Part shown: in pieces, positions 1-15,732 of the stretch
Position numbering within the stretch: position 1 is the stretch's first letter
Layout of the letters: every line of letters starts with the position of its first letter
Source: a virus
Length of the DNA stretch: 63,299 bases
Virus record (IMG/VR): IMGVR_UViG_3300010885_073058
Coordinates: 1-63,299 of that record
Strand: one strand, 5' to 3'
Translations under genes and position numbers: made by a program
Notes under the pieces: model-generated
Told to the model about the DNA's origin: nothing
The model's input: the letters and a program-made list of their open reading frames with translations, nothing else
Database searches by the model: none

Positions 1-87
1 GGAGCCCTCCAGGTCTACAACACAGCTCTCTCGGCAGCGCAGGTCTCAACTAACTTCCAGGCTGATCGCAGCAGGTATGGAGTCTAA
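1..87 (+). CDS. C-terminal end of a LamG/concanavalin A-like protein (partial)
   Basis: The first 28 codons before a TAA at 85-87 read as the tail of a protein whose start lies outside the window. The residues NTALSAAQVSTNF and the ending RYGV look like the last strand and C-terminus of LamG/concanavalin A-like domains found in phage tail and adhesin proteins, where a phrase such as 'alsaaqv..nf' is followed by a short basic tail. The stop overlaps the next start (TAATG), so the two genes are probably co-translated. Function is inferred as carbohydrate binding on the virion surface; only the tail is visible, so confidence is moderate. Confidence 0.55.
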   Translation, partial: GALQVYNTALSAAQVSTNFQADRSRYGV

Positions 88-626
88 TGTACGGAAGAAT
101 TTCAAATTTTGCAGGACCCATCTCCTCATTTCCAGCGCCAACAATCGTCTACTCCGCTGGTCTGTTTCGAACGACCTACACGGGCTACTTTGCTGACTCT
201 GTCAGTTTCTTCGCGACAGCCACTGCCACTGCCACGCTTGTTCAGACGACAGTCATTGAGGAACCGTCGACCGATGATGGCTCAAACTTCAGCATGCAAT
301 GGCTCGGATATTTCCGTCCCACGACAACTGAGACCTACACGTTCTTCCTCTCATCTGACGATGCTTCTTACCTGTGGATCGGAAGCAACGCGCTCTCTGG
401 ATTCACTACAGCAAATGCCACGGTCAATAATGGCGGTCTTCATGGTAACATTGAGACGTCAGGGACATCTGCTCTTACTTCCGGCGTCTATTATCCTATA
501 AGAATTCAATACGGAGAGCAGGGCGGCGGAGATGTCCTTACGTTCAACCACTCGACTGCTACAATCACTAAGACCACCAATGTGACAGGAAAGGTCTTCT
601 ACAACCCAACAACCAACGGATTCTAA
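87..626 (+). CDS. PA14/GLEYA-like carbohydrate-binding protein
   Basis: This 179-residue protein has a PA14/GLEYA-type core. It has FSMQWLGYFRP followed by TYTFFLSSDDASYLWIG (about residues 69-98), then NNGGLHGN and GVYYPIRIQYGEQGGGD (about 114-150). In PA14 domains the SDDAS segment lies near the ligand-binding loops and the YYPIRI strand is typical. No signal peptide or membrane segment is seen, so it is more likely a virion part than a secreted protein. It overlaps the stop of the LamG-type gene by one base and ends directly before the prepilin gene. The likely role is host-surface glycan attachment as a fibre or tail component, by family analogy. Confidence 0.65.
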   Translation: MYGRISNFAGPISSFPAPTIVYSAGLFRTTYTGYFADSVSFFATATATATLVQTTVIEEPSTDDGSNFSMQWLGYFRPTTTETYTFFLSSDDASYLWIGSNALSGFTTANATVNNGGLHGNIETSGTSALTSGVYYPIRIQYGEQGGGDVLTFNHSTATITKTTNVTGKVFYNPTTNGF

Positions 627-827
627 ATGATCAAAGAACTTCTAAAAGACGAAGAAGGCCAGTCCACCGTCGAGTACATGCTCCTCATCAGCGTGATCGT
701 CATCGCCATCGTCGCCGCGGCGTACGTGTTCATCGAGCCGTTCAAGCAGGGTGTTCTCGATCTAGGAAAGGACATCAAGAAGATCCTAAGCGACGGCAAG
801 ATAGGAAGAGTAGGAACAACTCGTTAA
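627..827 (+). CDS. Flp/Tad-type prepilin-like small protein
   Basis: The 66-residue product starts with a short charged leader (MIKELLKDEEG), then QSTVEYMLL and a hydrophobic stretch to about residue 35, then a charged tail. This matches a class III (type IVb/Flp) prepilin signal: glycine at position 11 as the cleavage residue, glutamate at +5 and tyrosine at +6 (the G-x4-E-Y pattern). Mature length would be about 55 residues, usual for Flp pilins. The gene follows the PA14-like stop immediately. Codons are strongly C/G-ending, unlike the glycosyltransferases downstream. No prepilin peptidase, ATPase or secretin is present, so any processing must use host machinery. It could also be a membrane-anchored decoy or a host gene picked up by chance. 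Confidence 0.7.
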   Translation: MIKELLKDEEGQSTVEYMLLISVIVIAIVAAAYVFIEPFKQGVLDLGKDIKKILSDGKIGRVGTTR

Positions 828-857: not shown

Positions 858-2729
858 ATGGAAAAACAGATTATTTTTGTTGCTGATCTCTTCGCTGAAC
901 AGTATGCCGGCGGCGCTGAACTAACCTCTGATGCGCTGATTGAAGCATCACCCACGCTTGTTAAGAAAGTTCATGCAAAGAACTTAACTGTCGAGTTCTT
1001 ACAGCAGCATGTCGACGCTTTCTGGATCTTTGGTAATTTCTCATCTATCAACTGGTCACTGATCCCAGTCATTGCATCAAATCTCCGTTATGCTGTGCTT
1101 GAGTATGACTACAAGTTCTGCCTCCACCGCTCGATTGAGAAGCACAAGCACGAGACAGGACAGGAGTGTGACTGCCACAAACGCCAGCTAGGACAAATGG
1201 TTGCAGGCTTCTACCAAGCTGCAGATGCAATCTTCTGGATGTCAGAGCAGCAGCGCGCACGATACACCGAGCGGTTCCCAAATATGTTGGGACACAGGAA
1301 TTCTCACGTCCTAAGCTCTGTATTTGATAGTCGCTTCTTTGATAAGATTGAGCAGCTTAAGAGCAAGACAGCTGATAGAAGCGGCTGGATTGTCCTCGGG
1401 TCAAAGTCGTGGATCAAAGGCTATGAAGACGCTGTGAAGTGGTGTGAGGACAATGGAAAGAAGTTCCAGAGCTACTGGGACGTTCCATATGAGGAGCTTC
1501 TTGACATCATGTCAAGGTCTGAGGGTTTTGTCTATCTTCCGCGAGGTGGTGACACATGCCCAAGAATGGTGATCGAGGCAAAGCTACTTGGATGTGAGGT
1601 CGTCACCAACGATAATGTGCAGCATGCATCAGAAAAATGGTGGAATGCCAACCCAGATGATGTCTGTGATTATTTGAAGGGTAGGCCTGATGTGTTTTGG
1701 GCGGCCATAAATAATGTGATCCAGCAGCAACCGACGCTGTCTGGTTACAGCACGACCTACAACTGTGTCGATCAAAACTATCCATTCGTCGAGTCGATCA
1801 CGTCTCTCCTGGATGTCTGCGACGAGGTAGTCGTAGTTGATGGCGGATCAACAGATGGGACTTGGGATGTCCTCACAGCAATGGCTGAAGAGAATCCAAA
1901 GCTTAAGATCAAGCAGGTTGAACGCGACTGGAGTCATCCACGTCACAGCGTCTTTGATGGCATGCAGAAGGCAGCTGCACGAGATCTCTGCACAGGAGAC
2001 TTCTGCTGGCAGCAGGACGTCGACGAGATAATCCACCAGAATGATTACCAGAAGATCCGCAATTTGCTCACATCGACACCCAAGAGTGTTAATCTCATCT
2101 GTCTGCCTGTGACTGAATTCTGGGGCAGCAAGGGTAAGATCAGGATCGACATTAATCCCTGGAAGTGGCGTCTGAGTAGAAACCACCCAGAGATCACACA
2201 TGGCATTCCTGCAAGTCTACGTCGACAAGATGAGAATGGTGACCTCTACTCTGCACCAGGATCAGATGGATGTGATTACATTACACGAAGCACAGGTGAC
2301 TTAGTTCCAAATGTCAACTTCCACACGCAGCAGACAGAACAACTACGTCAAGCTGCATCTAGAGATCCTGCAGCAAGACACCAGTATGTTCAGTGGTTAG
2401 CAGCTGTGATACAGAACTTACCCGGCGTCTATCACTACTCTTGGTTTAATCTTCCTCGCAAGATCAAAACTTACAAGAACTACTGGTCACGTCACTGGCA
2501 GAGCATGTATAACATCAGTCAGGATGATACAGCAGAGAACAACATGTTCTTCAATAAGCCCTGGTCTGACGTAAGCGACGAAGAGATCGATCTACTTGCT
2601 GCACGCCTTGAGCAAGAAATGGGTGGTTGGATCTTCCACCGCAAGATTGATTGGAACAATCCTACGCCGAGTGTTATGATCAATGAAGTAACACATCCGG
2701 CTGTGATGGAAGATTATGTCAACGCCTAA
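858..2729 (+). CDS. Two-domain glycosyltransferase (GT-B-like plus GT2)
   Basis: This 623-residue protein appears to join two catalytic folds. Residues about 1-290 look GT-B-like: a Rossmann-type start, then RGGDTCPRMVIEAKLLGCEVV (about 228-248) in which the Glu fits the donor-binding position of group 1 transferases. Residues about 300-560 are a GT2 (GT-A) domain with YNCVDQNYPFVES, VVVVDGGSTDGTWDVL (about 323-338) and a DxD-like QQDVDE (about 385). Such fusions can add two sugars in sequence. No good Shine-Dalgarno precedes the ATG at 858. The next gene overlaps its 3' end by 14 bases. It opens the glycan island. Confidence 0.75.
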   Translation: MEKQIIFVADLFAEQYAGGAELTSDALIEASPTLVKKVHAKNLTVEFLQQHVDAFWIFGNFSSINWSLIPVIASNLRYAVLEYDYKFCLHRSIEKHKHETGQECDCHKRQLGQMVAGFYQAADAIFWMSEQQRARYTERFPNMLGHRNSHVLSSVFDSRFFDKIEQLKSKTADRSGWIVLGSKSWIKGYEDAVKWCEDNGKKFQSYWDVPYEELLDIMSRSEGFVYLPRGGDTCPRMVIEAKLLGCEVVTNDNVQHASEKWWNANPDDVCDYLKGRPDVFWAAINNVIQQQPTLSGYSTTYNCVDQNYPFVESITSLLDVCDEVVVVDGGSTDGTWDVLTAMAEENPKLKIKQVERDWSHPRHSVFDGMQKAAARDLCTGDFCWQQDVDEIIHQNDYQKIRNLLTSTPKSVNLICLPVTEFWGSKGKIRIDINPWKWRLSRNHPEITHGIPASLRRQDENGDLYSAPGSDGCDYITRSTGDLVPNVNFHTQQTEQLRQAASRDPAARHQYVQWLAAVIQNLPGVYHYSWFNLPRKIKTYKNYWSRHWQSMYNISQDDTAENNMFFNKPWSDVSDEEIDLLAARLEQEMGGWIFHRKIDWNNPTPSVMINEVTHPAVMEDYVNA

Positions 2730-3447
2730 AGTACTAGTCACGATATGCTGCTACAACCACGGCAAATACCTTAATGAATCAGTTCAGAGCATTATCGACC
2801 AGACACACACAAATTTGGATATCTGCATAGTTGACGATGGATCAGATGCAGATCAGCATATCGGCAGGATTGCAAGCGATCTGCAGCAAAGAGACGCCAG
2901 AATCCGAGTCATTACACTACCCAAAAATATTGGTAAGTGGCACGGTCTCAATGAGGCTATAAGGACGACTGACGCAGTTCTTTGTACATCACATGATGCA
3001 GATGACATCTCGCTTCCTGACAGGATCGAGAGACAAGTTACGTGCCTCATGAAGACACAAACACTTCACAACCTTTGTGGATTTCATCACTGCTGGTCAG
3101 AAGATGATGTTGATAAGATAAAAAGAGATTATGTGTCACCGAGCGAATTACAGATTGTAAATGCTGAATCTGTCTCCAGAGCTGTGATGATGGGTAAAAG
3201 CACACCTGGAATAAATCATTACTTTACAGGTCAATTTGAGACAGCAGGTGTCAGTGCGCTTTTTTACAGACAGATTTGGGAGATGGGTGTTCGTTTTAAC
3301 CCACCTGGTGCAGGTATTAGAACACTTTCTAGTGAAGACAGTGATTTTAATTTCAGAGTGACTGCACTCTTGAGCAGGACATCAATCCTAGCAGAGCAAC
3401 CTTATTGCTATAGAAGAAACACATCAACCAACAATGAGCGTACATGA
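2716..3447 (+). CDS. GT2 family glycosyltransferase
   Basis: The 243-residue product is a typical family 2 glycosyltransferase. It has VTICCYNHGKYLNESVQSI at residues 7-25, the nucleotide-binding CIVDDGSD near 37, and a DxD-type SHDADD near 93 that would hold the metal and sugar nucleotide. The start overlaps the upstream glycosyltransferase by 14 bases and its end overlaps the next gene by ATGA, so translation is probably coupled. It lacks membrane segments and should be cytosolic. Donor and acceptor cannot be read from sequence. Confidence 0.85.
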   Translation: MSTPKVLVTICCYNHGKYLNESVQSIIDQTHTNLDICIVDDGSDADQHIGRIASDLQQRDARIRVITLPKNIGKWHGLNEAIRTTDAVLCTSHDADDISLPDRIERQVTCLMKTQTLHNLCGFHHCWSEDDVDKIKRDYVSPSELQIVNAESVSRAVMMGKSTPGINHYFTGQFETAGVSALFYRQIWEMGVRFNPPGAGIRTLSSEDSDFNFRVTALLSRTSILAEQPYCYRRNTSTNNERT

Positions 3448-4388
3448 AGTACAGAATTTTAGCAATATCAGCACCAGGTGATGATCGAGGCCCAGGTGTA
3501 ATGTTTAAAAATCACATTAAAGCAGTTACTCATAAAGATAGTGAGATAGAAATAGTTCCACTCACACAGGAGATTTGGGATAATGATGCTGCACTGACTT
3601 CTTTTGATGCTGCATGGGGTTACGTTAGGTTTCACCCGGGAATAGTTCCACGTCTTAGGCAGCTTGGTGTTCCCATCATTGGTGGCCCGAACATTGTGAT
3701 GGAAAGAGCAGATGCAGGTATCACAGACGAGTATGAATGGTGGTATCTAACACAACCCAGTGTAGATGTCAATCTAAATGTTGCTGAATACTATAAAGAT
3801 CATGTCCAGAAGTTTGTTACCAACGGAATGCGGTGTGAAGTTCTAGAAGGATGCTATGATGTTTCTTCTTTAAATTTTGAAAAGAGCAAAAGAGACATTG
3901 ACGTCTTGCTCTATCATAAAGTTAGAGTAAATGATGACAATGATAAGGCATTAGACAGACTGAACCTCCTTAATAACAAGTTGAAGAGCAAAAATCTACA
4001 GACTGAGATCATAGTTTATGGCTCACACTCTAGGGAAGATTATTTCTCTCTATGCAGGCGGAGCAAAACCGTAGCCTGGTTAAGCATTGAGGACTATGCA
4101 AGCATAGCTCAAATTGAAGCTCATCTACTGGGCTCCTGCGTCGTAGGCACACCTTACAACTTGACTATTCCATCCTTTGATGCCACACTATGTCATAACT
4201 CACAAGATATGAACAATTGGATCACGTGGAAAGATGCAGAAACGGTAAGTGAAGATTACTTGAACACGATCTTACAAGTCATTGACACACACAATCTTGA
4301 TGAAAGAGTGCACACCACAGCTGCTGAAAGACATGGATATAAGCGCTATAGAGACGAACTTTCAAATATTATTGGAAGGATAAAGTGA
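3444..4388 (+). CDS. GT-B-like glycosyltransferase (group 1-like)
   Basis: The 314-residue product has a divergent GT-B shape: an N-terminal Rossmann-like half, and a C-terminal half with the segment IAQIEAHLLGSCVVGTPYN near residues 218-236, which resembles the donor-binding E-x-x-x-x-G region of group 1 transferases. The central segment RDIDVLLYHK starts the second Rossmann unit. It overlaps both neighbours by four bases. Detection of the family is weaker than for its neighbours, so an inactive relative is possible. Its place among glycosyltransferases supports a sugar transfer role. Confidence 0.6.
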   Translation: MKYRILAISAPGDDRGPGVMFKNHIKAVTHKDSEIEIVPLTQEIWDNDAALTSFDAAWGYVRFHPGIVPRLRQLGVPIIGGPNIVMERADAGITDEYEWWYLTQPSVDVNLNVAEYYKDHVQKFVTNGMRCEVLEGCYDVSSLNFEKSKRDIDVLLYHKVRVNDDNDKALDRLNLLNNKLKSKNLQTEIIVYGSHSREDYFSLCRRSKTVAWLSIEDYASIAQIEAHLLGSCVVGTPYNLTIPSFDATLCHNSQDMNNWITWKDAETVSEDYLNTILQVIDTHNLDERVHTTAAERHGYKRYRDELSNIIGRIK

Positions 4389-5101
4389 AGATACTGTACA
4401 AATACCCAACAAGAGAGCGACCTCTCCTTTTTTCTAGAACTTTACGCGCATGGTACGACAACATGCAGCGTGATGATTTTAGTTTTTTGATCTCTTGTGA
4501 TAACAATGACGCCCAGATGAACAATGACAATGCTAGACATTTCATGTCATCTTTCAAAAATCTCACATTTCGCTATGATGACAATTCAAGTAAGATTGAA
4601 GCCTGCAATAGAGGCGTGAGCGAAGAAAATTTTGACATTGTTGTGCTTGTGAGCGATGACATGGTTCCCGAAGTGCGTGGGTTTGACGATATAATTGTCC
4701 AAAGAATGTCTGAAGAATTTCCAGATACAGACGGTGCGCTGTGGTTCTTTGACGGCTACAACCCAGACATTAACACACTGTCTGTCTTAGGCAGGAAGTA
4801 CTACGAAAGGTTCGGTTACATTTATCACCCAAGTTATACCACACAGTGGTGCGATCAAGAGCACACGGACGTATCTAAGTCGCTAGGAAAGCTACGCAGG
4901 TACGATGACGTCATAGTTCGACACCTGCATCCGGAAGTTGCAGCTTTGAGAAATGATGTTCGCGATGCTCTCTCAAAGCATGTGCCTGAATACACACAAG
5001 CAAATTTTCTAGGCCATGATAATCTTTGGTTGAGAAATTCAAAGGGTGATCTTGACAGAGAGACATACTATAACAGAAGAGCAGCAGGCTTTCCAAGGTA
5101 A
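4385..5101 (+). CDS. GT-A-like glycosyltransferase
   Basis: This 238-residue protein begins at a GTG that overlaps the upstream stop (GTGA). It opens with ILYKYPTRERPLLF and has FSFLISCDNNDA (about 32-43), an acceptor-type CNRGVSEENFDIVVLVSDDMVPE near 75-97 and a late His-containing IVRHLHPE. The SDDM motif fits the DxD metal site of GT-A enzymes. These features point to a distant GT2-like transferase. It is followed by a 42-base gap carrying a small hairpin before the next gene, so it may end a co-translated group. Confidence 0.6.
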   Translation: MKILYKYPTRERPLLFSRTLRAWYDNMQRDDFSFLISCDNNDAQMNNDNARHFMSSFKNLTFRYDDNSSKIEACNRGVSEENFDIVVLVSDDMVPEVRGFDDIIVQRMSEEFPDTDGALWFFDGYNPDINTLSVLGRKYYERFGYIYHPSYTTQWCDQEHTDVSKSLGKLRRYDDVIVRHLHPEVAALRNDVRDALSKHVPEYTQANFLGHDNLWLRNSKGDLDRETYYNRRAAGFPR

Positions 5102-5127
5102 ACACTTTTTAACCAGACAATAAAATG

Positions 5128-5143
5128 GTACCTAGGAAGGTAC
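5128..5143 (+). promoter_or_regulatory. Small hairpin touching the start codon of the SDR gene
   Basis: GTACC pairs with GGTAC around the loop TAGGAA, a 5-bp stem ending one base before the ATG at 5144. The purine-rich loop and its 3' side (AGGAAGG) would serve as the ribosome binding site, so the fold presents or masks it. The stem is short, and this is a weak call. Confidence 0.3.
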
Positions 5144-6103
5144 ATGCTAACTAGTAAGAATATCTTTGTCACTGGCGCGGGTGGCTTTATTGGATCATCA
5201 ATTGTCAAAAAGTTGGTGTCACTTGACGCGAATGTTTTTAGTCTTGTGAGATCTAAGTCCACAGAAGATGTTGAAACTCTGAAAGGATCTAAGATATACG
5301 TCGGTGATGTCTGTGACTATTCACTAATGACTGAGATTATTTCAACAAACAGCGTAGACTACATCGTTCATCTAGCAGCCAATGCAATCGTCAAGAATTC
5401 TGCAAGAGATCCAATGAACACTTATCGTTCCAATGTCATGGGAACAGTTGCAGTCCTTGAGGCAGCAAGAAATGTTGGAAAGTGTACAAAGATAATTGCT
5501 GCATCAAGTGATAAAGCCTATGGTGACCACGAGATCCTTCCTTATACAGAGAGCACACCAATTGCCACCAGGAACACTTACGACACATCAAAGGCATGCT
5601 CTGATCTTATTGCAAGGACATATGCACACAACTACGGAATGCCAATAGTTGTGACACGATGCAGTAATGTGTACGGTCCAGGTGATCCTAACACATCGAG
5701 AATTATTCCTAATACCATTGCTCGTATTAGTCGTAACGAGACACCTGTTCTATATTCTGATGTGTCATCAATGGAGCGTGAGTTCATCTATATCGATGAC
5801 GTAGTGGATGCTTACCTGCGTCTAATGTTATCTGACGAAACAACAAATGGCGAAGCTTACAATATCGGTGGCGGCGGCCCAGTCAAGATAACTCAAGTTG
5901 TTAACAAGATACTTGACCTCATGGGATCTAGACTCGAGACGACAGTTATCCAGAGAGAGCCTACATTTAAGGAAATTTCAAGACAGTACATTGACGCTTC
6001 CAAGATATTTGATGCAACCGGATGGAAGCAAACCACAAGCCTGCAGGTTGGTCTTGCAACAACAATACAGAGTTATCTTAAGGGCAGTAGCGAGAAGCGC
6101 TGA
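5144..6103 (+). CDS. NAD-dependent epimerase/dehydratase, CDP-glucose 4,6-dehydratase-like
   Basis: The 319-residue product is an extended short-chain dehydrogenase. It has the NAD-binding GAGGFIG at residues 11-17, VHLAANA near 83, the catalytic-region AASSDKAYGDHE near 120-131 and the YxxxK pair in YDTSKAC near 146-152. The SSDKAYG and TRCSNVYGPGDPNTSRIIP segments are closer to CDP-glucose 4,6-dehydratases (RfbG-like) than to UDP-glucose epimerases. It probably makes a 4-keto-6-deoxy sugar nucleotide for the transferases around it. Length is slightly below the usual 350 residues. Substrate assignment is by motif likeness only. Confidence 0.75.
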   Translation: MLTSKNIFVTGAGGFIGSSIVKKLVSLDANVFSLVRSKSTEDVETLKGSKIYVGDVCDYSLMTEIISTNSVDYIVHLAANAIVKNSARDPMNTYRSNVMGTVAVLEAARNVGKCTKIIAASSDKAYGDHEILPYTESTPIATRNTYDTSKACSDLIARTYAHNYGMPIVVTRCSNVYGPGDPNTSRIIPNTIARISRNETPVLYSDVSSMEREFIYIDDVVDAYLRLMLSDETTNGEAYNIGGGGPVKITQVVNKILDLMGSRLETTVIQREPTFKEISRQYIDASKIFDATGWKQTTSLQVGLATTIQSYLKGSSEKR

Positions 6104-6105
6104 AT

Positions 6106-6759
6106 ATGAAGGTCGTATCTTACTGCTTATGGGGAAATAACCCAAAATACACAGTTGGTGCTGTGCGTAACGCTGAACTTGTTAAATCGCACTATCCAGA
6201 CTGGCAAGCGTGGTTCTACGTAGGATCATCCACATCAAAAGATGTGGTTGCATCTTTGGTAAATGAAGGTGCAAAAGTCATCGAGATGGAAGAGCCTGGT
6301 GATTGGCGCGGCATGTTCTGGAGATTTTATCCTGCATCAGATCCCAACGTTGAAGTAATGATCAGCAGAGACTGTGACAGTAGGATAAGTCAGAGAGAAG
6401 TTGATGCTGTGAATGACTGGCTCGACTCTGGCCTACCATTCCATATCATGAGAGATCATCCATGGCATGGAACAGAGATACTGGGAGGAATGTGGGGTGC
6501 AAGGTACCCATTCTTATCCAGGATGACAGAGCTTATTGATCAATTTGATAAAGGTGATTTCTGGCAGGTAGATCAGAATTTTCTAAAGCTGCTCTACCCA
6601 CATATCGCGCCTCATGCCAAGGTGCACGATGAGTTCTTCCAGAAGACTGGATGGCCATCTAAGAGAAATGGACCAGAATTTGTTGGACAAGTCTTTGATG
6701 AGAATGAGAAAACTGTGCAAGAACATCTAGAAGTTCTTTCACAATCTCTAGGAATGTAA
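6106..6759 (+). CDS. Putative GT-A-like sugar transferase (phage/bacterial conserved type)
   Basis: The 217-residue protein begins MKVVSYCLWGNNPKY and contains VEVMISRDCDSRIS near 82-95, where DCD could be the DxD metal site, followed by FHIMRDHPWHGTEILGGMWG near 118-137. This architecture, a short GT-A-like fold with an Arg-Asp-His-Pro loop, occurs in glycan clusters as an uncharacterised nucleotide-diphospho-sugar transferase type. I do not recognise a studied member. It starts three bases after the upstream stop and is followed directly by another transferase gene. Confidence 0.55.
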   Translation: MKVVSYCLWGNNPKYTVGAVRNAELVKSHYPDWQAWFYVGSSTSKDVVASLVNEGAKVIEMEEPGDWRGMFWRFYPASDPNVEVMISRDCDSRISQREVDAVNDWLDSGLPFHIMRDHPWHGTEILGGMWGARYPFLSRMTELIDQFDKGDFWQVDQNFLKLLYPHIAPHAKVHDEFFQKTGWPSKRNGPEFVGQVFDENEKTVQEHLEVLSQSLGM

Positions 6760-7827
6760 ATGAAGATTGCATTTTACTCACACAACATAGACTTTGCAGG
6801 AACTTGGCGGACACACGAAAGAAAGGCTGAATATATCCAAAATCAAGATGATTTTGATGTTTATGTCTTTTATTCGCCCAATGTTGAGAATAACAGACTT
6901 GAAGAATCTAAGAAAATATTGACAAATTGTAAGTTTGTTCCATTTGAAAGAACTTTAGAAAAATTTGACGCTTCTAGCGGTTATAACCCAATCTCATGTA
7001 ATATTAGACAAATTGTGAATGATCTTAAGATAGACATATTTCACTTTACTAGAAGCGGTTATTTTGAGTGGCCGTTTAATGTGAGAATGTGCCCTATTCA
7101 AATAGAAACAAACATCTTTGGCTATAAAGATAATTCAAGTTTTCTAGATGGATCGATTTTTATCACAAAAAGATTTGATATTGCTGAGAGCAATGTAAAA
7201 AAACTAATACACTGTCCAATACCAGAACCTGGCACAAAATTCGATTCTATCGAAAGCCTTAGAAGTGATCTGCATATTGACCAGGAATGTCTTGTTTTAG
7301 GAAGATCAGGTAGACCAGCAAATTTTGATCCAATTGCACTGAATGCTTTTGCTCTTTTCAAGAAAGAATTTAAAGCACCCGTCAAATATGTCATCATGGG
7401 TGGCTGTGAACAAGCTAAAAATGAAGTGTTACAATTAGGATTAAAAGATGATGTTATTTTTATAGATTGTACCAACGACGATGAGTATATCGAGAGGTTT
7501 CATAAGACAATCGATATATTTGCACACTACAGATCAGACGGTGAGACGTTTGGTACAGCTATAGGACAGGCAATGATGTATTCGATACCTGTTATTACAC
7601 ACTATGCAGGTCAAAATTCTCAAGTTGACACTGTTGCCGGAGGAGGATTTAGTGTCGCTAGCGTTAATGAATATGCAAGAGCGCTTCTAATTCTTTCTAA
7701 TAACAGTAATAGATCTTCTATTGGATTAAAAGCTAAAGATCATGCTATGACACACTATGCTCAGAATAAAATAGGATCTCAAGTAAAAGAATTCTACTAT
7801 GATGTAGCAGCATCTAAAGGGTTTTAA
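6760..7827 (+). CDS. GT4-type (group 1) glycosyltransferase
   Basis: The 355-residue product is a GT-B enzyme. The second Rossmann half begins near residue 178 with VLGRSGRPANFDP, and the donor-binding segment DGETFGTAIGQAMMYSIPVI lies near 260-279, including the E-x7-E-like spacing region with a Gln in place of the second Glu. The gene abuts the upstream stop (TAA then ATG). From here to about 12.35 kb the DNA is visibly AT-rich, with AAA/ATT/GAA codons, unlike genes on either side. That suggests a separate origin for this block. The retaining transfer chemistry of GT4 is inferred. Confidence 0.8.
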   Translation: MKIAFYSHNIDFAGTWRTHERKAEYIQNQDDFDVYVFYSPNVENNRLEESKKILTNCKFVPFERTLEKFDASSGYNPISCNIRQIVNDLKIDIFHFTRSGYFEWPFNVRMCPIQIETNIFGYKDNSSFLDGSIFITKRFDIAESNVKKLIHCPIPEPGTKFDSIESLRSDLHIDQECLVLGRSGRPANFDPIALNAFALFKKEFKAPVKYVIMGGCEQAKNEVLQLGLKDDVIFIDCTNDDEYIERFHKTIDIFAHYRSDGETFGTAIGQAMMYSIPVITHYAGQNSQVDTVAGGGFSVASVNEYARALLILSNNSNRSSIGLKAKDHAMTHYAQNKIGSQVKEFYYDVAASKGF

Positions 7828-7828
7828 A

Positions 7829-8701
7829 GTGAATTTTTTCATAATACAGGAACGCGGAAGACACGAGAAGAACAGAGAGTTTAGAGAAGCGCTGTGCATG
7901 AAACGATCACTAGAAAGATTAGGTCATAAGTGCACAGTCTGGGGTTTAGGGTATGAAAATTATTCCATACCATTTGAAGAAGCCTCTATAGGTCATGATA
8001 TTGTTCTTAGTCTTGAGAACTATGATACAGGGTGGCATCCTATAATTTCTGGTTTTAGTGGCTTGAAAGCATTCTGGAGCATTGACTCTCATTGCGTCCT
8101 GTACGATCACGTCAATTTTTGTCAAAAGAATAAGATAGATCTACTTTTAAATTCCACAGCGCGCTATATACCTGCCTTCCAAAACTGTGTTAGATATGCA
8201 GCATGGTTTCCAAATGGATACCCAGAAGATCTAATTTCACCAAGAAATGATGTTAAAAGGATCGTCGACATTGGTTTTTGTGGATCATCAATAGACAAGA
8301 GAAATGAAGTAATCTCTCAAATTGAGAGGACTATTCTTATTAAGAAGGACATCTTTTTAATTGGTGAAGACATGGTTAGAGCATTGTCAAGCTATAAGAT
8401 TGCATTCAACTATAACATCGCAGATGATATTAATTTTAGGACATTTGAAGCGACAGGTGCAGGTGCATTGTTGCTGACAAACTATACACCAAACTTAGAG
8501 AAACTTTTCAAGATTGGAGAAGAAGTTGTTGTATATCAAAATATTGACGATTTAATACAAAAAATACTTTACTTTGTTAAAAATAATGAAGAAAGAAATA
8601 CTATAGCAAACGCAGGGATCCTTAGATCCAAAGCAGATCATAGCTATGATGCTAGGTCACGTTACCTTATTGATCTATTGAGTAGCATAGGAATAAAATA
8701 A
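7829..8701 (+). CDS. GT-B glycosyltransferase, CgeB/spore-maturation-like
   Basis: It uses a GTG start one base after the previous stop. The 290-residue protein has DIVLSLENYDTGW, a central FCGSSIDKRNEVI near 150 and FRTFEATGAGALLLTNY near 203-219, which is the C-terminal signature of CgeB-like group 1 transferases (Glyco_trans_1_2 type). The end, KADHSYDARSRYLIDLL, also fits that family. Function is sugar transfer, with unknown donor. The DNA is AT-rich, consistent with the surrounding block. Confidence 0.75.
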   Translation: MNFFIIQERGRHEKNREFREALCMKRSLERLGHKCTVWGLGYENYSIPFEEASIGHDIVLSLENYDTGWHPIISGFSGLKAFWSIDSHCVLYDHVNFCQKNKIDLLLNSTARYIPAFQNCVRYAAWFPNGYPEDLISPRNDVKRIVDIGFCGSSIDKRNEVISQIERTILIKKDIFLIGEDMVRALSSYKIAFNYNIADDINFRTFEATGAGALLLTNYTPNLEKLFKIGEEVVVYQNIDDLIQKILYFVKNNEERNTIANAGILRSKADHSYDARSRYLIDLLSSIGIK

Positions 8702-8762
8702 AAAGTATAGATAGAACATTTGAATTTATCGCTTTTAGATATAACTAAATACAAGGTTTAAA

Positions 8763-9395
8763 ATGATTAAAAGATTTCATGAGCATTCATTTAGAACAGA
8801 TTTAATAGTTCCAGGAGGCTGGGGAATTGATTTTGGATGTGGCACTGATTTTTTTGTCGCCACAGATATGCTAGAATTAGGCTTGAATGTAATAGCTGTT
8901 GACCCTAATCCTGCTATTAAGTCTGTTCCCAATGTTTCAAATTTATATTTTGAAAGAGCGGCACTGGCAACAAGTAGCGGCAATATTGAGTTAAAAACTT
9001 ATAATGACAATGATGCAGCATCTGTCATGACACCTAAAAATGATGTCAGCTATCTTAGAAGCAAAGAGGCAGTACAGGTTTCTTGTGTTACAATAGAAGA
9101 CATTATGTTGAAATACAATATTGATGAATTCGAAATTCTAAAATTAGATATTGAAGGTGCAGAATATGAGTTTTTAATGTCATTGAAGAAGCCTATTGCA
9201 AAACAAATATCTGTAGAATTTCATGACTTTAGAGGTTTAAATCCATTCTACCCATATAATGAAAAATACTATGATGCTTTATTTGAGAAACTAAGCAAGT
9301 GGTACACAATTGAAAAGCACATTATTGAGCAGCATCCTGGACTAGACTCACCAACGTGCTATAATTACTGGGACAGTCTTTTTGTCCGTAGATGA
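8763..9395 (+). CDS. FkbM family SAM-dependent methyltransferase
   Basis: This 210-residue protein has the SAM-binding GIDFGCGTDFF at residues 20-30, the acidic strand end NVIAVDPNP near 41-49 and the family-typical EILKLDIEGAEYEFLMSL near 124-141, including the LDxEGxE motif. FkbM enzymes O-methylate sugars or small molecules, and in glycan clusters they often cap or decorate sugars. A 61-base gap precedes it. A weak hairpin (GGACA/TGTCC with a T-rich loop) sits in its last codons. Confidence 0.85.
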   Translation: MIKRFHEHSFRTDLIVPGGWGIDFGCGTDFFVATDMLELGLNVIAVDPNPAIKSVPNVSNLYFERAALATSSGNIELKTYNDNDAASVMTPKNDVSYLRSKEAVQVSCVTIEDIMLKYNIDEFEILKLDIEGAEYEFLMSLKKPIAKQISVEFHDFRGLNPFYPYNEKYYDALFEKLSKWYTIEKHIIEQHPGLDSPTCYNYWDSLFVRR

Positions 9396-9420
9396 ATAAT
9401 GGCAAAATAGAGGCAAACTA

Positions 9421-10374
9421 ATGATTTTAATTTCTGAAGAAACACACAGAGATCTATACTATGATGTAGAAAAATGCATTGAATATTGCAAGCAAATCTC
9501 TGAAAAAGATCAGAATGAGATAGTAGATTATCACATGTTGTGGCTTGTGACTAACTTGCCTTTCTCAAGAAAACAGGCACTTCCCGTTAAATCATACTTG
9601 ACCACTCAAAACTTGAAGACCACACGTCTCAATGTGTGGTCAAATGTTGACCTATCAGAGAATGAATACCTTAAGCCTTTAATAGAAAAATTTCCTGATA
9701 ACATTAAAATTAGAAAATGGGACCCAGTAGAAGAAGCAAAAGGGACGCCTCTTGAAGGCAAAAATTATCTAACACTTAATGCTAGTAGCTGCTACATATC
9801 GGACCTGTTTAGGATTTTGTGTCTTCACAATCACGGTGGCTTGTATGTTGACGTTGATGTTGTCTTTTTGAGAGATTTCTCACCACTTCTTGACCAAGAG
9901 TTCATGTATAAGTGGTCATTCCAGGAAAACATGATCAATGGTGCTGTGATGAGACTTTTTAAAAAAAGCCTACTATCACAGCAGTTGTTAGAAACAATGG
10001 TAGAATTAGGTGCACTGCCTGATTCTTTAAATTGGTCGAGTACTCTTTATGAAAAAGTCTATGAAAAGAATAAAAATTGGACTATATTCCCATCTGGCTT
10101 CTTTAACACCGAATGGCAAATAAAACTCTCTGATCAAGAAAAATTAGATCCTAAAAATACAGATTTGTTAAATTTTATTCGCTATCCTTTCAAGAAAAAT
10201 CCGCTTAGTCATAAAATGTATGACGGCGCATTTTGCTGGCACTGGCACAATGGTTGGACGGCAGAAATTGAAAATGGTAGCAAATGGGAACTTTTGGAAT
10301 CTAAAGCAAATTTTGAGTTGGCACAGGCGCATGGTGATAAAATCATCTACCGAGACAATCACCTGCAATATTAG
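9421..10374 (+). CDS. Glycosyltransferase with DxD motif (Gly_transf_sug/GT32-like)
   Basis: The 317-residue product contains ISDLFRILCLHNHGGLYVD and then DVDVVFLRDF near 126-153. This is the hallmark GG-x-Y-x-D-x-D of sugar transferases related to Och1 and capsular polysaccharide synthesis proteins. It also has a C-terminal CWHWHNGW near 271-278 that fits the metal-coordinating His region. The N-terminal half is long and unassigned. It probably adds a sugar to a growing surface or virion glycan. DNA is AT-rich like its neighbours. Confidence 0.8.
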   Translation: MILISEETHRDLYYDVEKCIEYCKQISEKDQNEIVDYHMLWLVTNLPFSRKQALPVKSYLTTQNLKTTRLNVWSNVDLSENEYLKPLIEKFPDNIKIRKWDPVEEAKGTPLEGKNYLTLNASSCYISDLFRILCLHNHGGLYVDVDVVFLRDFSPLLDQEFMYKWSFQENMINGAVMRLFKKSLLSQQLLETMVELGALPDSLNWSSTLYEKVYEKNKNWTIFPSGFFNTEWQIKLSDQEKLDPKNTDLLNFIRYPFKKNPLSHKMYDGAFCWHWHNGWTAEIENGSKWELLESKANFELAQAHGDKIIYRDNHLQY

Positions 10375-10404
10375 ATTTGATTAGTAGATCTAATAAACTG
10401 GAGA

Positions 10405-10429
10405 CCAATAAACTTTTTTAATTTATTGG
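10405..10429 (+). other. 8-bp hairpin with T-rich loop between glycan genes
   Basis: CCAATAAA (10405-10412) pairs with TTTATTGG (10422-10429) around the loop CTTTTTTAA. It lies in the 68-base gap between two transferase genes and is followed by ATAAAATAG and the next ATG. It may be a weak terminator or RNA-processing site; there is no classic T-run after the stem. Confidence 0.4.
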
Positions 10430-10442
10430 CATAAAATAGCAC

Positions 10443-11249
10443 ATGCAAATAGACAAATATTTTTTTGATCGCCTAATAGTCAGCTCAGATGATTCATGTT
10501 TCCTTGAATTTTCTCCAATTATCTCAAAAGCCTGGAGATCATTATTTCCAGGATTGAAGCTTACATTAGCATACGTTACAGACAGAGAAAATGTAATCCA
10601 AGAGCTATATGATCTTTTTGACGATATCATCGTCTTTAAAAATATTGAAGGTGTTCCTTCTGCTAACTTAGCAAAGATTGCAAGAAGGTACGCATGCACA
10701 CAGTATGGAAATGAAGTTTGCATGATTGAAGACATAGATACAGCACCCCTCAGATCAGATTATGTAATAAATTACGCAAAACAAAGACGGCCCGGGACCA
10801 TTGGAATGGTTGGTCTTGAAGTCTATGAAGGTACGCCTCATTACGGCAAAGTACCAGCAAGCAATACACACGCTGAATCAACAGTTTGGAAGAATGTTAT
10901 AAACCCTAAAAATTTAGAATTCCCTGAATGGATAAGCACTCTGAAGGGAACTAAAATTTTTGACAATGTAGAAGATCCTTACTCACAATCCACAGAATTT
11001 TCAGACGAATCTTTAATGCGTGCGCTAATCAAAATAAACAACGTAAGTTGTGATTCTATCACATACATTAATAGAGATTGCAACCCACGACACGATTGGA
11101 TCGATAGAAGTTGGTGGGAAGTCGATTCAAATAGACTTCAAAAAAATGAGTATACAATGGTTAACTTTAAAAGACCTATTGGTAATGAAGCAGAACTTGT
11201 GGTTTCTCATATTTTTAATTCATTAATTACACAAGGTGATAGATGTTAA
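10443..11249 (+). CDS. Putative GT-A-like transferase, uncharacterised
   Basis: The 268-residue protein begins with FDRLIVSSDDSCFLEF, and has KLTLAYVTDRENV, then YGNEVCMIEDIDTAPL near 87-102, where DID could be a DxD metal site. The order (strand, acidic loop, helix, DxD) fits a GT-A nucleotide-diphospho-sugar fold, but I do not recognise a defined family. It shares style with the 217-residue protein at 6106-6759. It overlaps the next gene by seven bases, so the two may act together. Confidence 0.5.
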   Translation: MQIDKYFFDRLIVSSDDSCFLEFSPIISKAWRSLFPGLKLTLAYVTDRENVIQELYDLFDDIIVFKNIEGVPSANLAKIARRYACTQYGNEVCMIEDIDTAPLRSDYVINYAKQRRPGTIGMVGLEVYEGTPHYGKVPASNTHAESTVWKNVINPKNLEFPEWISTLKGTKIFDNVEDPYSQSTEFSDESLMRALIKINNVSCDSITYINRDCNPRHDWIDRSWWEVDSNRLQKNEYTMVNFKRPIGNEAELVVSHIFNSLITQGDRC

Positions 11250-11800
11250 AAAATTATACAATTAGATTTGATGATGTTTGTGCTAACTGTGATATGACTG
11301 ATGTAAATGAAATGGGTAGACACGCATATGATCTTGGCGCCCGTGTTTTGTACTGTATCTCTCCGTTGGTCCATAACATGGAAGAGTTTAATGGAAAAGA
11401 TAGACAGAGAATATACCCAAAAATTCTAAATGCATATTCAGACTACAGAGAGTTTTTTAAAGTTGACATCGCTTCAATACCAGAAATTCCTGATTTTGCA
11501 ATCAGAGCTAGCCACGGTTTAATACACGTTGATCATAGGCTTTTAGAAGAGCATGCTCAAGAAATGAGTATATTGGTCAGCTGCTCGATTGCAAAATCAA
11601 AGATATTTGTTCCTCCCTTTAATAAGTGGAACAAGATAACAGAAAAAATTTGTGCTGAAAACAAAATAGAGCTTATTAAGTTCGAAGATGGATGGAAGTG
11701 TATTGAATACAATTCTTTCGATCCTTCACAAAATCTTTGGTACATTCATCATAGAGAGATGAGCGTTGATAACTTTAAGAAATGGTTTGAAATAAAATGA
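11243..11800 (+). CDS. Polysaccharide deacetylase-like protein
   Basis: The 185-residue product shows NodB-homology traits. These are an early IRFDDVC near residues 7-13 (the Asp-Asp pair), a later RASHGLIHVDHR near 89-100 in which two His residues are spaced to bind metal, and IFVPPFNKWN near 117-126, like the 'RPPxG/FxPPFxxW' motif of this superfamily. Such enzymes remove acetyl groups from amino sugars. The protein is shorter than usual NodB domains (about 200 residues). It overlaps its neighbours by 7 and 4 bases. Activity is inferred. Confidence 0.6.
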   Translation: MLKNYTIRFDDVCANCDMTDVNEMGRHAYDLGARVLYCISPLVHNMEEFNGKDRQRIYPKILNAYSDYREFFKVDIASIPEIPDFAIRASHGLIHVDHRLLEEHAQEMSILVSCSIAKSKIFVPPFNKWNKITEKICAENKIELIKFEDGWKCIEYNSFDPSQNLWYIHHREMSVDNFKKWFEIK

Positions 11801-12351
11801 TGATAGCGATTCATCAACCTAATTTTTTCCCATGGTTACCATTCTTTCTAAAGATGAAATCTGTTGAAAAGTTTGTGATCTTAAATCATTGTCAATTCGA
11901 AAAAAATAATTATCAGAATCGTTTTTTCTATAGAGGCTCATGGCAGACGATGTCTGTCCAGAAAGGGTTGGATCCGATTATAGAAAAGAAATACGTCGAT
12001 CCATTTAAAGATTGGGAACGAATTAAACGAAGAATTGCCGATAAGTCAAAAATTCTAGAAAAATTTGATGCATGCATCAGCGACAGTTTAACTGTCACAA
12101 ATTGCAATCTAATTTCATCTATCTCTCAACAGCTTCAAATTGATACTGAAATTCTGTTTGATGAAAAGACAGAACTAACAAGTAACGAACGTCTTATATC
12201 CATCTGTCAAAAGCTAGGAGCGAACAAATATCTTGCTGGGGCGGGTGGAAAGAATTATATGAACGTCAAAAAATTCAATGACGCAGGTATAGAGGTTATT
12301 TTTCAGGATCTTGAAAGCAAAGACAAAGTTCATATTCTTGATATTCTATAA
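11797..12351 (+). CDS. WbqC-like family protein
   Basis: The 184-residue protein starts IAIHQPNFFPWLPFFLKM, the clear N-terminal signature of the WbqC-like family (AIxQPxYxPWxGYF). It continues with FVILNHCQFEKNNYQNR near 27-43 and ERLISICQKLGANKYLAGAGG near 130-150. WbqC-like proteins are common in O-antigen and capsule clusters; their exact reaction is not settled, with proposed roles in modified-sugar transfer. The ATGATG start overlaps the previous stop. It ends the AT-rich part of the island. Confidence 0.8.
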   Translation: MMIAIHQPNFFPWLPFFLKMKSVEKFVILNHCQFEKNNYQNRFFYRGSWQTMSVQKGLDPIIEKKYVDPFKDWERIKRRIADKSKILEKFDACISDSLTVTNCNLISSISQQLQIDTEILFDEKTELTSNERLISICQKLGANKYLAGAGGKNYMNVKKFNDAGIEVIFQDLESKDKVHILDIL

Positions 12352-12359
12352 GATTAATC

Positions 12360-12530
12360 ATGAAAGAGATTATTACACCGTCGTTTCTAACAGAAACGAC
12401 GTGTGAAATTCTTATTTCACTTATCAAATCAAAATCACGATGTAAGATATTCGATAGGTGCCCAAATGAATATTGGAATTTTAGGATACGGCGAAATAGG
12501 GAAAGCAATCCATCAGTTGTATTCTAGATC
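12360..12530 (+). pseudogene. Short ORF, possibly the N-terminal relic of a lost gene
   Basis: An ATG at 12360 opens a 56-codon frame beginning MKEIITPSFLTETTCEILIS. The start resembles the N-terminus of small phage enzymes (for example 2OG-Fe(II) oxygenase-like 'itp.fl..e.c..li'), but the frame runs into the dehydrogenase start at 12466 in another register and stops at 12530. A 9-bp hairpin (12379-12401) lies within it. I read it as a possible gene remnant at a recombination junction. It may equally be non-coding, as no core domain is present. Confidence 0.3.
12379..12401 (+). terminator. 9-bp stem-loop, possible terminator or processing site
   Basis: CGTCGTTTC (12379-12387) pairs perfectly with GAAACGACG (12393-12401) around TAACA. 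It is GC-richer than its surroundings and lies between the WbqC-like and dehydrogenase genes. No U-run follows directly (TGTGAAATTC), so Rho-independent termination is uncertain. Confidence 0.45.
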
Positions 12531-13203
12531 GAGACAGCATCAGATATTTGTGAAAGATCTTGACCGCGATGATGGGATGACAAATATCGATGTTCTGAAC
12601 GTATGTATACCGCAACTTAATAATTTCAACGAGATTGTGATAGACATCGCGAAACGTTCGAAAAGCAAGATGATAATCATACACTCTACCGTCAGAGTAG
12701 GAACTACAGAGTTAATTTCAAAAAAATTAGCCTGTGATGTTGCTCACTCTCCGGTTCGTGGCGTTCATCCAAATCTACTTGAAGGTATACTGACATTTGT
12801 CAAATATGTGGGAAGCGATAATGAGGAAAGTAGTTCGAGAATTACTGAACATCTAAGAAGTTTAGGCGTGAATGCAGTATCCTTAAAAAGCTCACGTGAA
12901 ACTGAGCTTGGGAAGCTATTGGATACTACATACTATGGGATTTGCATCGCATGGCATGGTGAAATGAAGAAGATGTGCGATGAAGTTGGAGTAGATTTTG
13001 AGGAAGCTGTCACGCTTTTCAATAAAACATACAACTCTGGTTACACTCAATTGGGCAAAAGCAACGTCGTTAGACCCGTGCTATTTCCTCCTGAGTCAAA
13101 GATCGGAGGACACTGTGTTGTACCAAACGCAAAAATCTTGAAAGAAACTTTCGAATCAGAAGGTCTTGACATGATACTGAAGTACTCGAGAGATAATTCA
13201 TGA
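12466..13203 (+). CDS. Short nucleotide-sugar dehydrogenase-like protein (UDP-glucose/GDP-mannose dehydrogenase family)
   Basis: The ATG at 12466 is preferred to one at 12403 because it has AGGTG upstream and begins directly with the Rossmann strand NIGILGYGEIGKA. The 245-residue product has IIHSTVRVGTTE near 69-80, HSPVRGVHP near 93-101 and GGHCVVPNAKIL near 219-230, with the catalytic-type Cys. Family enzymes oxidise a sugar C6 alcohol to a carboxylate using NAD. The C-terminal UDP-binding domain (another 100 or more residues) is missing and the central domain is reduced, so substrate or activity may differ. It overlaps the next gene by ATGA. Confidence 0.65.
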   Translation: MNIGILGYGEIGKAIHQLYSRSRQHQIFVKDLDRDDGMTNIDVLNVCIPQLNNFNEIVIDIAKRSKSKMIIIHSTVRVGTTELISKKLACDVAHSPVRGVHPNLLEGILTFVKYVGSDNEESSSRITEHLRSLGVNAVSLKSSRETELGKLLDTTYYGICIAWHGEMKKMCDEVGVDFEEAVTLFNKTYNSGYTQLGKSNVVRPVLFPPESKIGGHCVVPNAKILKETFESEGLDMILKYSRDNS

Positions 13204-14126
13204 AATTAGTCACAGGTGCGACTGGGCTTCTGGGCAGTGAAATTCTTGCTCTGTCCCCTGTGTCTGTCGGCATGAGTTCAAAGGAATGCGACCTCACAGA
13301 TTCGAATCATGCTATCCTCACTCTGGAAGATGGACGAGTAGACACGGTCATTCACTGCGCGGCAAGGGTCGGTGGTGTGAAGGCAAACACTGACTACGTT
13401 GCAGACTTCTTCGACGACAATGTCAAGATGAACATGAATGTTCTTGATGCCTGCCGTGAAAGAAAGCTGAAGCTGGTCTCGGTTCTCTCAACCTGCATAT
13501 ATCCAGACAAGGTCTACGTCCAGTATCCTCTCACTGAGGGACAGCTTCATGCTGGTCCACCTCATCATTCGAACTTTGGGTATGCCTACGCAAAGAGGAT
13601 GCTTGAAGTCCAGAGTAGAGCTTACCGTCAACAGTTCGGATGCAACTTCATCTCCGTCATTCCGAACAATCTCTACGGCATAAATGACAACTACGACCTC
13701 AACAGTGGTCATGTTATTCCAGCTCTCATTCGCAAGTTCCACGAGGCAATGCTTGAAGGTAGGAACGAAGTGGTTATCTGGGGGACTGGACGCCCAATTC
13801 GAGAGTTTACTTCCGCCAGAGATGCAGCTAAGATCATCCTATGGCTCGCAGAAAATTATGACGGTGAAGAGCCCGTTAACATCGGCAATCCTGATTGGAT
13901 CTCTATCGAAAATCTTTCTCTAATGATCGGAGAAGAAATCGGATTTAAGGGACACGTGAAGTTTGACGCGTCAAAGCCTGATGGACAGTATGAGAAGCCC
14001 TCATCGAACCAGAAGCTTAGATCTCTTGGCTGGACAGATGCGTACACTCCACTTCGCGTTGGACTTAGAGAGACAATTCACAAATTTAAAGAAGCATATC
14101 CAAATGTTAGGGGAGTAGCAAATTGA
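13200..14126 (+). CDS. fcl: GDP-L-fucose synthase
   Basis: The 308-residue SDR has GATGLLGSEI near residues 6-15, HCAARVGGVKANTDYVADF near 49-67 (the GG-x-x-AN motif characteristic of GDP-fucose synthase), STCIYPD near 97-103 and the YxxxK site in FGYAYAKRM near 123-131. It catalyses epimerisation and reduction of GDP-4-keto-6-deoxy-mannose to GDP-L-fucose with NADPH. A GDP-mannose 4,6-dehydratase gene lies 0.6 kb downstream, giving the two-step route from GDP-mannose. Codons here are GC-richer than in the preceding block. Confidence 0.85.
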   Translation: MKLVTGATGLLGSEILALSPVSVGMSSKECDLTDSNHAILTLEDGRVDTVIHCAARVGGVKANTDYVADFFDDNVKMNMNVLDACRERKLKLVSVLSTCIYPDKVYVQYPLTEGQLHAGPPHHSNFGYAYAKRMLEVQSRAYRQQFGCNFISVIPNNLYGINDNYDLNSGHVIPALIRKFHEAMLEGRNEVVIWGTGRPIREFTSARDAAKIILWLAENYDGEEPVNIGNPDWISIENLSLMIGEEIGFKGHVKFDASKPDGQYEKPSSNQKLRSLGWTDAYTPLRVGLRETIHKFKEAYPNVRGVAN

Positions 14127-14731
14127 AAGGTAGAAATTTAACTTTAGAGTCTCTAGAGTATTTATTTTCAAACTTTGACTTATCTTACAAGTCTTGTATT
14201 GATTTATTTGCAAAAGATGGATCAAGACAGTCACACTTTTTTTATGATAAAGTAAGAAGCATGGAGATGTGGGAGATAGATCCTGCTGTCGCATCAAAAG
14301 CAAAATTGAAATTTCCAAATGCAAATGTTGTGTGTTGTGATAGTATTGATAAGATAAAAAATGATAGTTGGCGCGATAGTTTTGACATCATATTGGTAGA
14401 TAATCCTCTATCAACATATTGCAACAATGTATATTGCGAAAATTTTGATGTTATTGATCACATCCACAAAGCTATTAATGACGAAGCTTTATGCTTGATC
14501 AACATTGTAGTTCAACCATTTGACATAGAGAATGAAAAAAATAAAATTTGGAAAAATAGAAGGCTTGATTTTTTTGGTGAAGTAAACATAGAAATAGATC
14601 AAGCAGTTGATGTGTATGTGAGTAAGTTTAAAAAGTCGGGTCTTAATGTAACAAATGTTAAATTTTTCGATAGAGAAGAATATAACAATAATGTTTACTT
14701 ATATCACGCATTATTTTCATTGAAAAAGTGA
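14123..14731 (+). CDS. Putative SAM-dependent methyltransferase-like protein
   Basis: A TTG start overlaps the upstream stop (TTGA). The 202-residue product has SCIDLFAKDGSRQSHF near 24-39, MEMWEIDPAVASKAKLKFP near 47-65, VCCDSID and FDIILVDNPLS near 88-98. This order resembles motifs I, II and IV of Rossmann methyltransferases, with a DNP in place of the usual DPP. It could act on DNA, RNA or a sugar; the glycan setting favours the last. The gene is AT-rich between GC-richer neighbours, so it may be a separate insertion. Confidence 0.5.
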   Translation: MKGRNLTLESLEYLFSNFDLSYKSCIDLFAKDGSRQSHFFYDKVRSMEMWEIDPAVASKAKLKFPNANVVCCDSIDKIKNDSWRDSFDIILVDNPLSTYCNNVYCENFDVIDHIHKAINDEALCLINIVVQPFDIENEKNKIWKNRRLDFFGEVNIEIDQAVDVYVSKFKKSGLNVTNVKFFDREEYNNNVYLYHALFSLKK

Positions 14732-14742
14732 TAAAACTTTTT
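14723..14742 (+). terminator. A/T-rich hairpin followed by T residues
   Basis: AAAAAGT (14723-14729) pairs with ACTTTTT (14736-14742) around GATAAA, spanning the stop codon of the methyltransferase-like gene. The T-run in the 3' arm makes it look like a weak intrinsic terminator, but the stem has only one G-C pair. Confidence 0.35.
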
Positions 14743-14754
14743 TAAAATCATAAA

Positions 14755-15732
14755 ATGATAAAAAAAGCTTTAATTACTGGAGTAACTGGTCAAGATGGTT
14801 CTTATCTTGCTGAGCTTCTCCTTGAAAAGGGTTATAAAGTTGTTGGAATGAAGAGAAGGACTTCTCTTCTTGCTACCGATCGTATCGATCATCTCCTTGC
14901 AAATCCTAGGTTCCAGCTAGTCTACGGCTCAATGAATGATGTTGGCGCTTTCTATCGTCTCTTCTCTACACAGAAGTTCGATGAGGTATACAACCTTGCT
15001 GCTCAATCTCACGTTCGTGTCTCGTTCGAAGTCCCAGAGGAGACTGTGGATGCAGTAGCAATGGGACCGCTGCGCCTGCTTGAGTGCATACGCAACGTTC
15101 AGCCATCCTGTAGGTTCTACCAAGCTTCTTCTTCTGAGATGTATGGCGACAACCCAGCGCACCCGCAGAACGAGGAGACCCAACTTATGCCGGCTTCTCC
15201 TTACGCCTGTGCTAAAGTCTTTGCTCACGGTCTCACTCGCAACTACAGAGAGAGTTACGGTATCCACGCATCTTCCGGCATTCTCTTCAACCACGAGAGC
15301 CCCCGTCGTGGCGAGACTTTCGTCACTCGCAAGATCACGCTTGCTGCAGCGCGAATCAAGCTTGGTCTGCAGGACAAGATTGCTCTCGGCAATCTCGACG
15401 CTCTTCGCGACTGGGGCTATGCCAAGGACTATGTCGAGGCAATGTGGCTCATGCTCCAGCAGGACAGGCCTGACGACTATGTCGTTGCCACTGGAGAAAC
15501 CCACACTGTTCGCGAGTTTCTAGACGAAGTTTTCCAGATTGCAGGTCTTGATGTCGACAAACATCTGGTCATTGACGAGAGGTTAAGGCGACCTCATGAA
15601 GTTCCTTGGCTTGAGGGCGACTGTTCTAAAGCAAAGGAGAGGCTTGGATGGACACCAAAAACAACTTTCAAGGGTCTCGCAAAGCTCATGTATGAGGCTG
15701 ACTTAAAAAATGAAATGGAGAAGCTAAAATGA
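14755..15732 (+). CDS. gmd: GDP-mannose 4,6-dehydratase
   Basis: The 325-residue product opens with [21 protein letters not shown] near residues 5-25, the signature start of GMD enzymes. It continues with YNLAAQSHV near 79-87, [10 protein letters not shown] near 122-131, SPYACAK near 148-154 (YxxxK) and [17 protein letters not shown] near 178-194. It converts GDP-D-mannose to GDP-4-keto-6-deoxy-D-mannose. It is a little shorter than typical GMD (about 340-370). With fcl upstream it can supply GDP-L-fucose, provided the host gives GDP-mannose. The next gene overlaps it by ATGA. Confidence 0.92.

Follow-up and report, generated by a model that had tools for sequence, protein, structure and literature searches.

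A Flp/Tad-type prepilin gene, derived from Myxococcota-like hosts, conserved in T4-like freshwater phages

Introduction

The window considered here, a 63.3 kb virus record taken at its full length, has close to its left end a small gene with the form of a pilus subunit. What would a phage do with a pilin, and from where did it obtain one? Phages that block pili are known, and do so with unrelated inhibitors; a pilus subunit carried by the phage, under strong selection and in some genomes overlapping a gliding gene, would be a different way to control the host surface. To the sequence-only reading of the window, a pilin gene in a T4-like phage, between a PA14/GLEYA-like gene and a glycan island, was not known as described, and in the open literature searched no phage-encoded pilin and no phage GltF was found.

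The gene and its setting in the window

The predicted protein (Table 1) has the leader MIKELLKDEEG followed by QSTVEY, with cleavage expected after Gly11 (DEEG / QSTVEY). It has Gly at position -1, Glu16 at +5 and Tyr17 at +6, followed by approximately 20 hydrophobic residues, as is characteristic of a class III leader. These features, along with the length of 66 codons, were found just as first described from the sequence. The predicted structure is a single long, plain helix, with block-mean pLDDT values of 89-96 over residues 21-50, and a PDB sequence search with the pilin gave no meaningful match.

The start of the gene abuts the stop codon of a GLEYA/PA14-domain gene, which is itself preceded by the end of a further adhesin gene (bases 1-86), present in whole in contig L002. 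A glycosyltransferase gene lies downstream, confirming the placement between a PA14/GLEYA-like gene and a glycan island. By inspection of translations, this island of glycosyltransferase, nucleotide-sugar epimerase and methyltransferase-like genes is long (858-17578) and sits between the adhesins and the baseplate genes. The adhesin genes at 87-626, L001:1086-1835 and L006:6948-8000 have in common a short N-terminal motif, MYGRxSNFAGPIS or MLxxTSSFAGS, which precedes differing binding domains, like an exchangeable attachment module. A search for the T4 late promoter TATAAATA showed no enrichment, with none near the pilin gene, and a tRNA search of the window found none.

Table 1. Features of the prepilin region in the window and positions of the GltF-like gene in related viral contigs (L numbers)
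Feature	Position	Strand	Remarks
Prepilin ORF, Flp/Tad-type and of host origin	627..827	+	66 aa; MIKELLKDEEGQSTVEYMLLISVIVIAIVAAAYVFIEPFKQGVLDLGKDIKKILSDGKIGRVGTTR; leader residues 1-11, mature part 55 aa
Class III signal Gly11 / Gln-Ser-Thr-Val-Glu(+5)-Tyr(+6)	657..677	+	Invariant in 14 phage and 18 host copies
Hydrophobic helix MLLISVIVIAIVAAAYVFIE	678..737	+	Phage and host copies nearly invariant here
GLEYA/PA14-domain protein, tail-fibre/adhesin region	87..626	+	Pfam 74.9 and 56.3 bits, above cut-off
Glycosyltransferase, first gene of the sugar island	858..2729	+	Pfam; not a constant neighbour of the pilin
GltF-like gene loci	L003:7744-8001, L005:5721-5975, L007:8219-8455, L008:9094-9354		
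GltF-like gene loci, continued	L010:7744-8001, L013:7720-7983, L014:7226-7492, L015:7711-7983		

Assignment to the Flp/Tad prepilins

The Pfam models Flp1_like, Class_IIIsignal, DUF4244 and Flp_Fap each matched the pilin below cut-off (14.1 of 32.2 bits for Flp_Fap, 17.1 of 23.7 for Class_IIIsignal), while the NCBIfam and PHROGs searches gave no meaningful family. The assignment is made instead through homologous host pilins whose genes adjoin that of a prepilin peptidase. More distant family relatives (E-value about 1e-6 to 1e-18) lie at most about 400 bp from an A24 prepilin peptidase gene in 11 of 12 host genomes, and the relative beside the peptidase in G010 exceeds the Class_IIIsignal cut-off (24.6). 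By Pfam, genes for RcpC/CpaB and a secretin are also present in the host loci read, along with one for a protein that combines ParA-like and T2SSE domains (TadA-type ATPase), and TadE was found in all 12 genomes. The pilins of these Tad loci read MRRGQSTVEWMLLVSVLSVGLALAAYAFIPGFQNGIESL... and are plainly of the same family as that of the phage. On this homology the product of 627-827 is identified as a Flp/Tad-type prepilin, though not as a member of Pfam Flp_Fap; the identity proposed from the sequence alone thus holds by kinship, and the profile match to Flp/Fap expected with it was seen only below cut-off.

Phages carrying the pilin

PHROGs matches in the window include the large terminase, gp20-type portal, gp21-type protease, gp23-type major head protein and a baseplate wedge protein. 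With gp17-, gp20-, gp21- and gp23-type head genes and a gp6-type baseplate gene, the record belongs to a T4-like phage, as was originally recognised. A scan of 2.9 million viral contigs identified the pilin in 16 further contigs at 84-100% identity, and a profile scan returned the same 16 loci. Neither protein nor DNA comparison matched any INPHARED phage. The terminase of the window has relatives at 64-93% identity in three pilin-bearing records and its gp6-type baseplate protein at 48-94% in five, the other records being fragments without these two genes. The pilin thus occurs across a range of related T4-like phages. In L002, L004 and L006 it is flanked on both sides by the same kinds of neighbours as in the window; the neighbour pair, for which the sequence-only reading suggested a survey, does recur, but it is not constant elsewhere.

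The alignment of the phage pilins shows variable leaders and an invariant helix, the invariant columns including G11-Q-S-T-V-E16-Y17. Differences between copies are mostly at third codon positions, and the 56 phage-phage pairs have a median dN/dS of 0.047, synonymous sites in many cases being close to saturation or past it. The pilin is under strong purifying selection, which is strong on the mature part. This part is conserved over its full length, including the C-terminal tail, with no truncation. Within residues 11-35, every position that never varies in hosts is also fixed in the phage copies, and phage-specific residues occur mostly from position 37 onward.

Such conservation already refutes the view that the gene is an assembly artefact or a recent, passive pick-up of functionless host DNA. 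The host-like codon use of the gene core (see below) would agree with that view, but many samples contributed the seventeen viral records that have the gene, synonymous sites are near saturation between many of these, dN/dS is about 0.05 and the terminases of the carrier phages are down to 64% identical, leaving it a negligible probability. A chance ORF or a chimeric join of the first kilobase with host DNA, which had been named as a possible failing of the find, is excluded by the 16 independent contigs that encode the pilin at 84-100% identity.

Host orthologues and origin of the gene

A genome scan returned 24 pilin loci, mostly in metagenome-assembled genomes named 'Deltaproteobacteria' or 'proteobacterium'. 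An orthologue 64-80% identical was present in 12 of 12 tested 'Deltaproteobacteria'/Myxococcota genomes, and many of these loci have, by inspection, an aldehyde dehydrogenase gene upstream and a metallophosphoesterase gene downstream, the conserved surroundings indicating a chromosomal gene. Among 71 genomes of the class, a strong orthologue (over 90 bits) was found in 20, the remainder having weak matches or none. The host orthologue closest to the phage pilin is usually not part of the Tad cluster; in one host a phage-type copy (69%; G010:C482) is itself beside the A24 peptidase. Three loci (L023, L030, L031) are titled Klebsiella pneumoniae, a label that is not credible with 65-72% GC and a Myxococcota-like pilin.

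A tree of 36 pilins, built on an alignment of only 66 columns, groups the phage copies in a single clade (99/97) within the host orthologues, with host L032 as its sister (96/94); many of its other branchings are not firm. Since the phage clade is nested among host copies, the gene was taken from a host; by this sequence evidence an ancestor of these T4-like phages acquired it from a Myxococcota-like host. The pilin gene links these uncultured freshwater phages to such hosts, which would be freshwater myxobacteria-like bacteria.

Codons 12-40 of the window gene (660-746) have a GC3 of 100% (28/28), where about 12/28 is predicted from phage codon usage (P about 1e-11); their DNA identity to host L032 is 93%. 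Codon use elsewhere in the gene resembles that of the phage (phage GC 43%), and the AT-rich phages L003, L010 and L011 are without high GC3 in the pilin core. This segment may owe its host-like GC3 to codon selection, or to an exchange with the host at a later time.

Neighbouring genes and the GltF-like protein

The pilin directly follows tail-adhesin genes in the window and in L002, L004, L005, L006 and L007. In L003, L010 and L013-L016 it is away from adhesins, beside a GltF-like gene or unrelated small genes. In five contigs (L003, L010, L013, L015, L016) its start overlaps the stop of the gene for this small secreted GltF-like protein instead, and hence proximity to virion adhesins is not a constant setting. 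Immediately downstream of the pilin, a glycosyltransferase gene is found in the window and in L002, L004, L006 and L012; L001 has one nearby. This arrangement would suit the idea, put forward in the sequence-only reading, of a glycosylated surface protein made by the adjoining transferases. However, no transferase adjoins the pilin in L003, L005, L007, L008, L010 and L013-L016, the next genes in L003, L005, L007 and L010 being of other kinds, and the idea is therefore highly improbable. A constant link of pilin and glycosyltransferase was ruled out by this comparison of neighbours across contigs.

The GltF-like gene is present in 10 of the 17 pilin-bearing records and absent from the window. 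It extends far beyond the pilin-carrying phages, with 46 viral loci overall (L104-L149), and the pilin was sought and not found in 30 records having the GltF-like gene alone. A tree of the GltF-like proteins would allow one or several acquisitions by phages. The protein has no Pfam domain. Relatives at 55-71% identity occur in all 12 hosts, with a TPR gene on one side and an FHA gene on the other in the contexts read. In Myxococcus xanthus, gltF (MXAN_4868) codes for a domain-free protein of 89 aa with a signal peptide and is located between gltE (TPR) and gltG (FHA); it is required for gliding, and its reported occurrence is confined to Myxococcales and Bdellovibrionales (PMC3169522). Because the host relatives share this gene order and the phage protein is likewise small, secreted and domain-free, the linked gene is most likely a gltF homolog, a likeness drawn from size, leader and gene order.

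Discussion

No A24 peptidase and no T2SSF (TadB/C-type) gene was identified in the 17 phage records, while the same search was positive in the host control. These records are fragments and machinery genes could lie in their unsequenced parts; barring this, the phage pilin must use host processing and assembly. We place at about even chances that the phage puts its own pilin into the host Tad machinery and so changes or blocks host pili. During infection the phage prepilin would enter the host inner membrane, be cut after Gly11 by a TadV/CpaA-like A24 peptidase of the host, and then compete or co-assemble with the closely similar host pilin in the host Tad machine. Host pili would then differ in their surface or in their number, the packing helix being almost unchanged and the C-terminal half having phage-specific residues. 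The benefit could be a surface closed to other phages, or a change in the attachment and movement of the infected cell, and the GltF-like protein would act alongside in phages carrying both. In Flp pili the part from about position 37 onward is expected to be exposed, and the combination of fixed residues 11-35 with phage-specific residues from 37 fits a subunit that enters the filament but changes its surface or dynamics. That the Tad machine is the one served is inferred, the closest host orthologue usually being outside the Tad cluster.

The intact protein suits a working role no less well than a blocking one, both blocking and sustaining being matters of interpretation. The main rival is that the phage supplies a working pilin, and GltF, whereby host pili and gliding are sustained after shutdown of host expression; this is possible, if the less probable. 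Infected cells would then still attach, move or keep cell contact, and the pilin would be an auxiliary gene for host function, a role to which we give a similarly modest chance. The conservation of the whole, untruncated mature pilin with its C-terminal tail and its link to a full-length GltF-like protein, GltF being needed for M. xanthus gliding (PMC3169522), speak for a supplied subunit, but the phages have just one subunit from either machine, and what a lytic phage would gain is hard to see. Improbable, in turn, is that the pilin form is due to ancestry only and that the protein serves a private purpose of the phage, in the virion or anchored in the envelope. Its use could be, with the same small probability, as part of the adhesin apparatus or as an inner-membrane holin-like or signalling peptide. 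The position directly behind tail-adhesin genes in the window and five contigs would suit this, yet in six others the gene is away from adhesins, and the cleavage motif and polymer helix are unchanged relative to host copies. Blocking or exclusion through the host pilus is proposed as the most likely role.

The protein is of a known kind; what is new, as far as could be tested, is that phages encode it, keep it strongly conserved and pair it with a gliding gene. A faithful copy of one of the host's pilus subunits, often joined to a copy of a host gliding-motility protein, suggests that the virus reworks host surface machinery in infection. We tentatively consider that host-derived pilin and gliding-machine subunit, an overlapping pair in some genomes, could make up a surface-takeover cassette reprogramming two envelope machines at once, in which case the Tad pilus and the Glt apparatus would be functionally linked in this lineage. 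The role of Tad pili and gliding in infection of predatory or social bacteria thereby becomes testable.

Like the Flp/Tad (type IVb/IVc) pilins, such as Flp1 of Aggregatibacter and PilA of Caulobacter, the phage pilin is small, with an acidic leader ending in Gly, Glu and Tyr at +5 and +6 and one long helix, and its host relatives adjoin genes for prepilin peptidase, CpaB, secretin and TadA. It differs in being phage-encoded without this machinery and in a sequence under the Pfam Flp_Fap cut-off. The GltF-like protein resembles GltF of the M. xanthus Agl/Glt machinery, whose gltE-gltF-gltG order is mirrored by the host copies, although here the gene is found in viral contigs. Small phage proteins aimed at the host pilus, as proposed for the phage pilin, have counterparts in Tip of D3112 and Aqs1 of DMS3, Pseudomonas phage proteins which reportedly bind the PilB ATPase; these are however unrelated PilB-binding proteins, whereas the present phage carries the pilus subunit itself. 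As with other host-derived auxiliary genes of T4-like phages, the pilin was acquired once from a host, is strongly selected and has spread among related phages; unlike the auxiliary metabolic enzymes of that group, the genes described here would encode structural parts of host surface machines.
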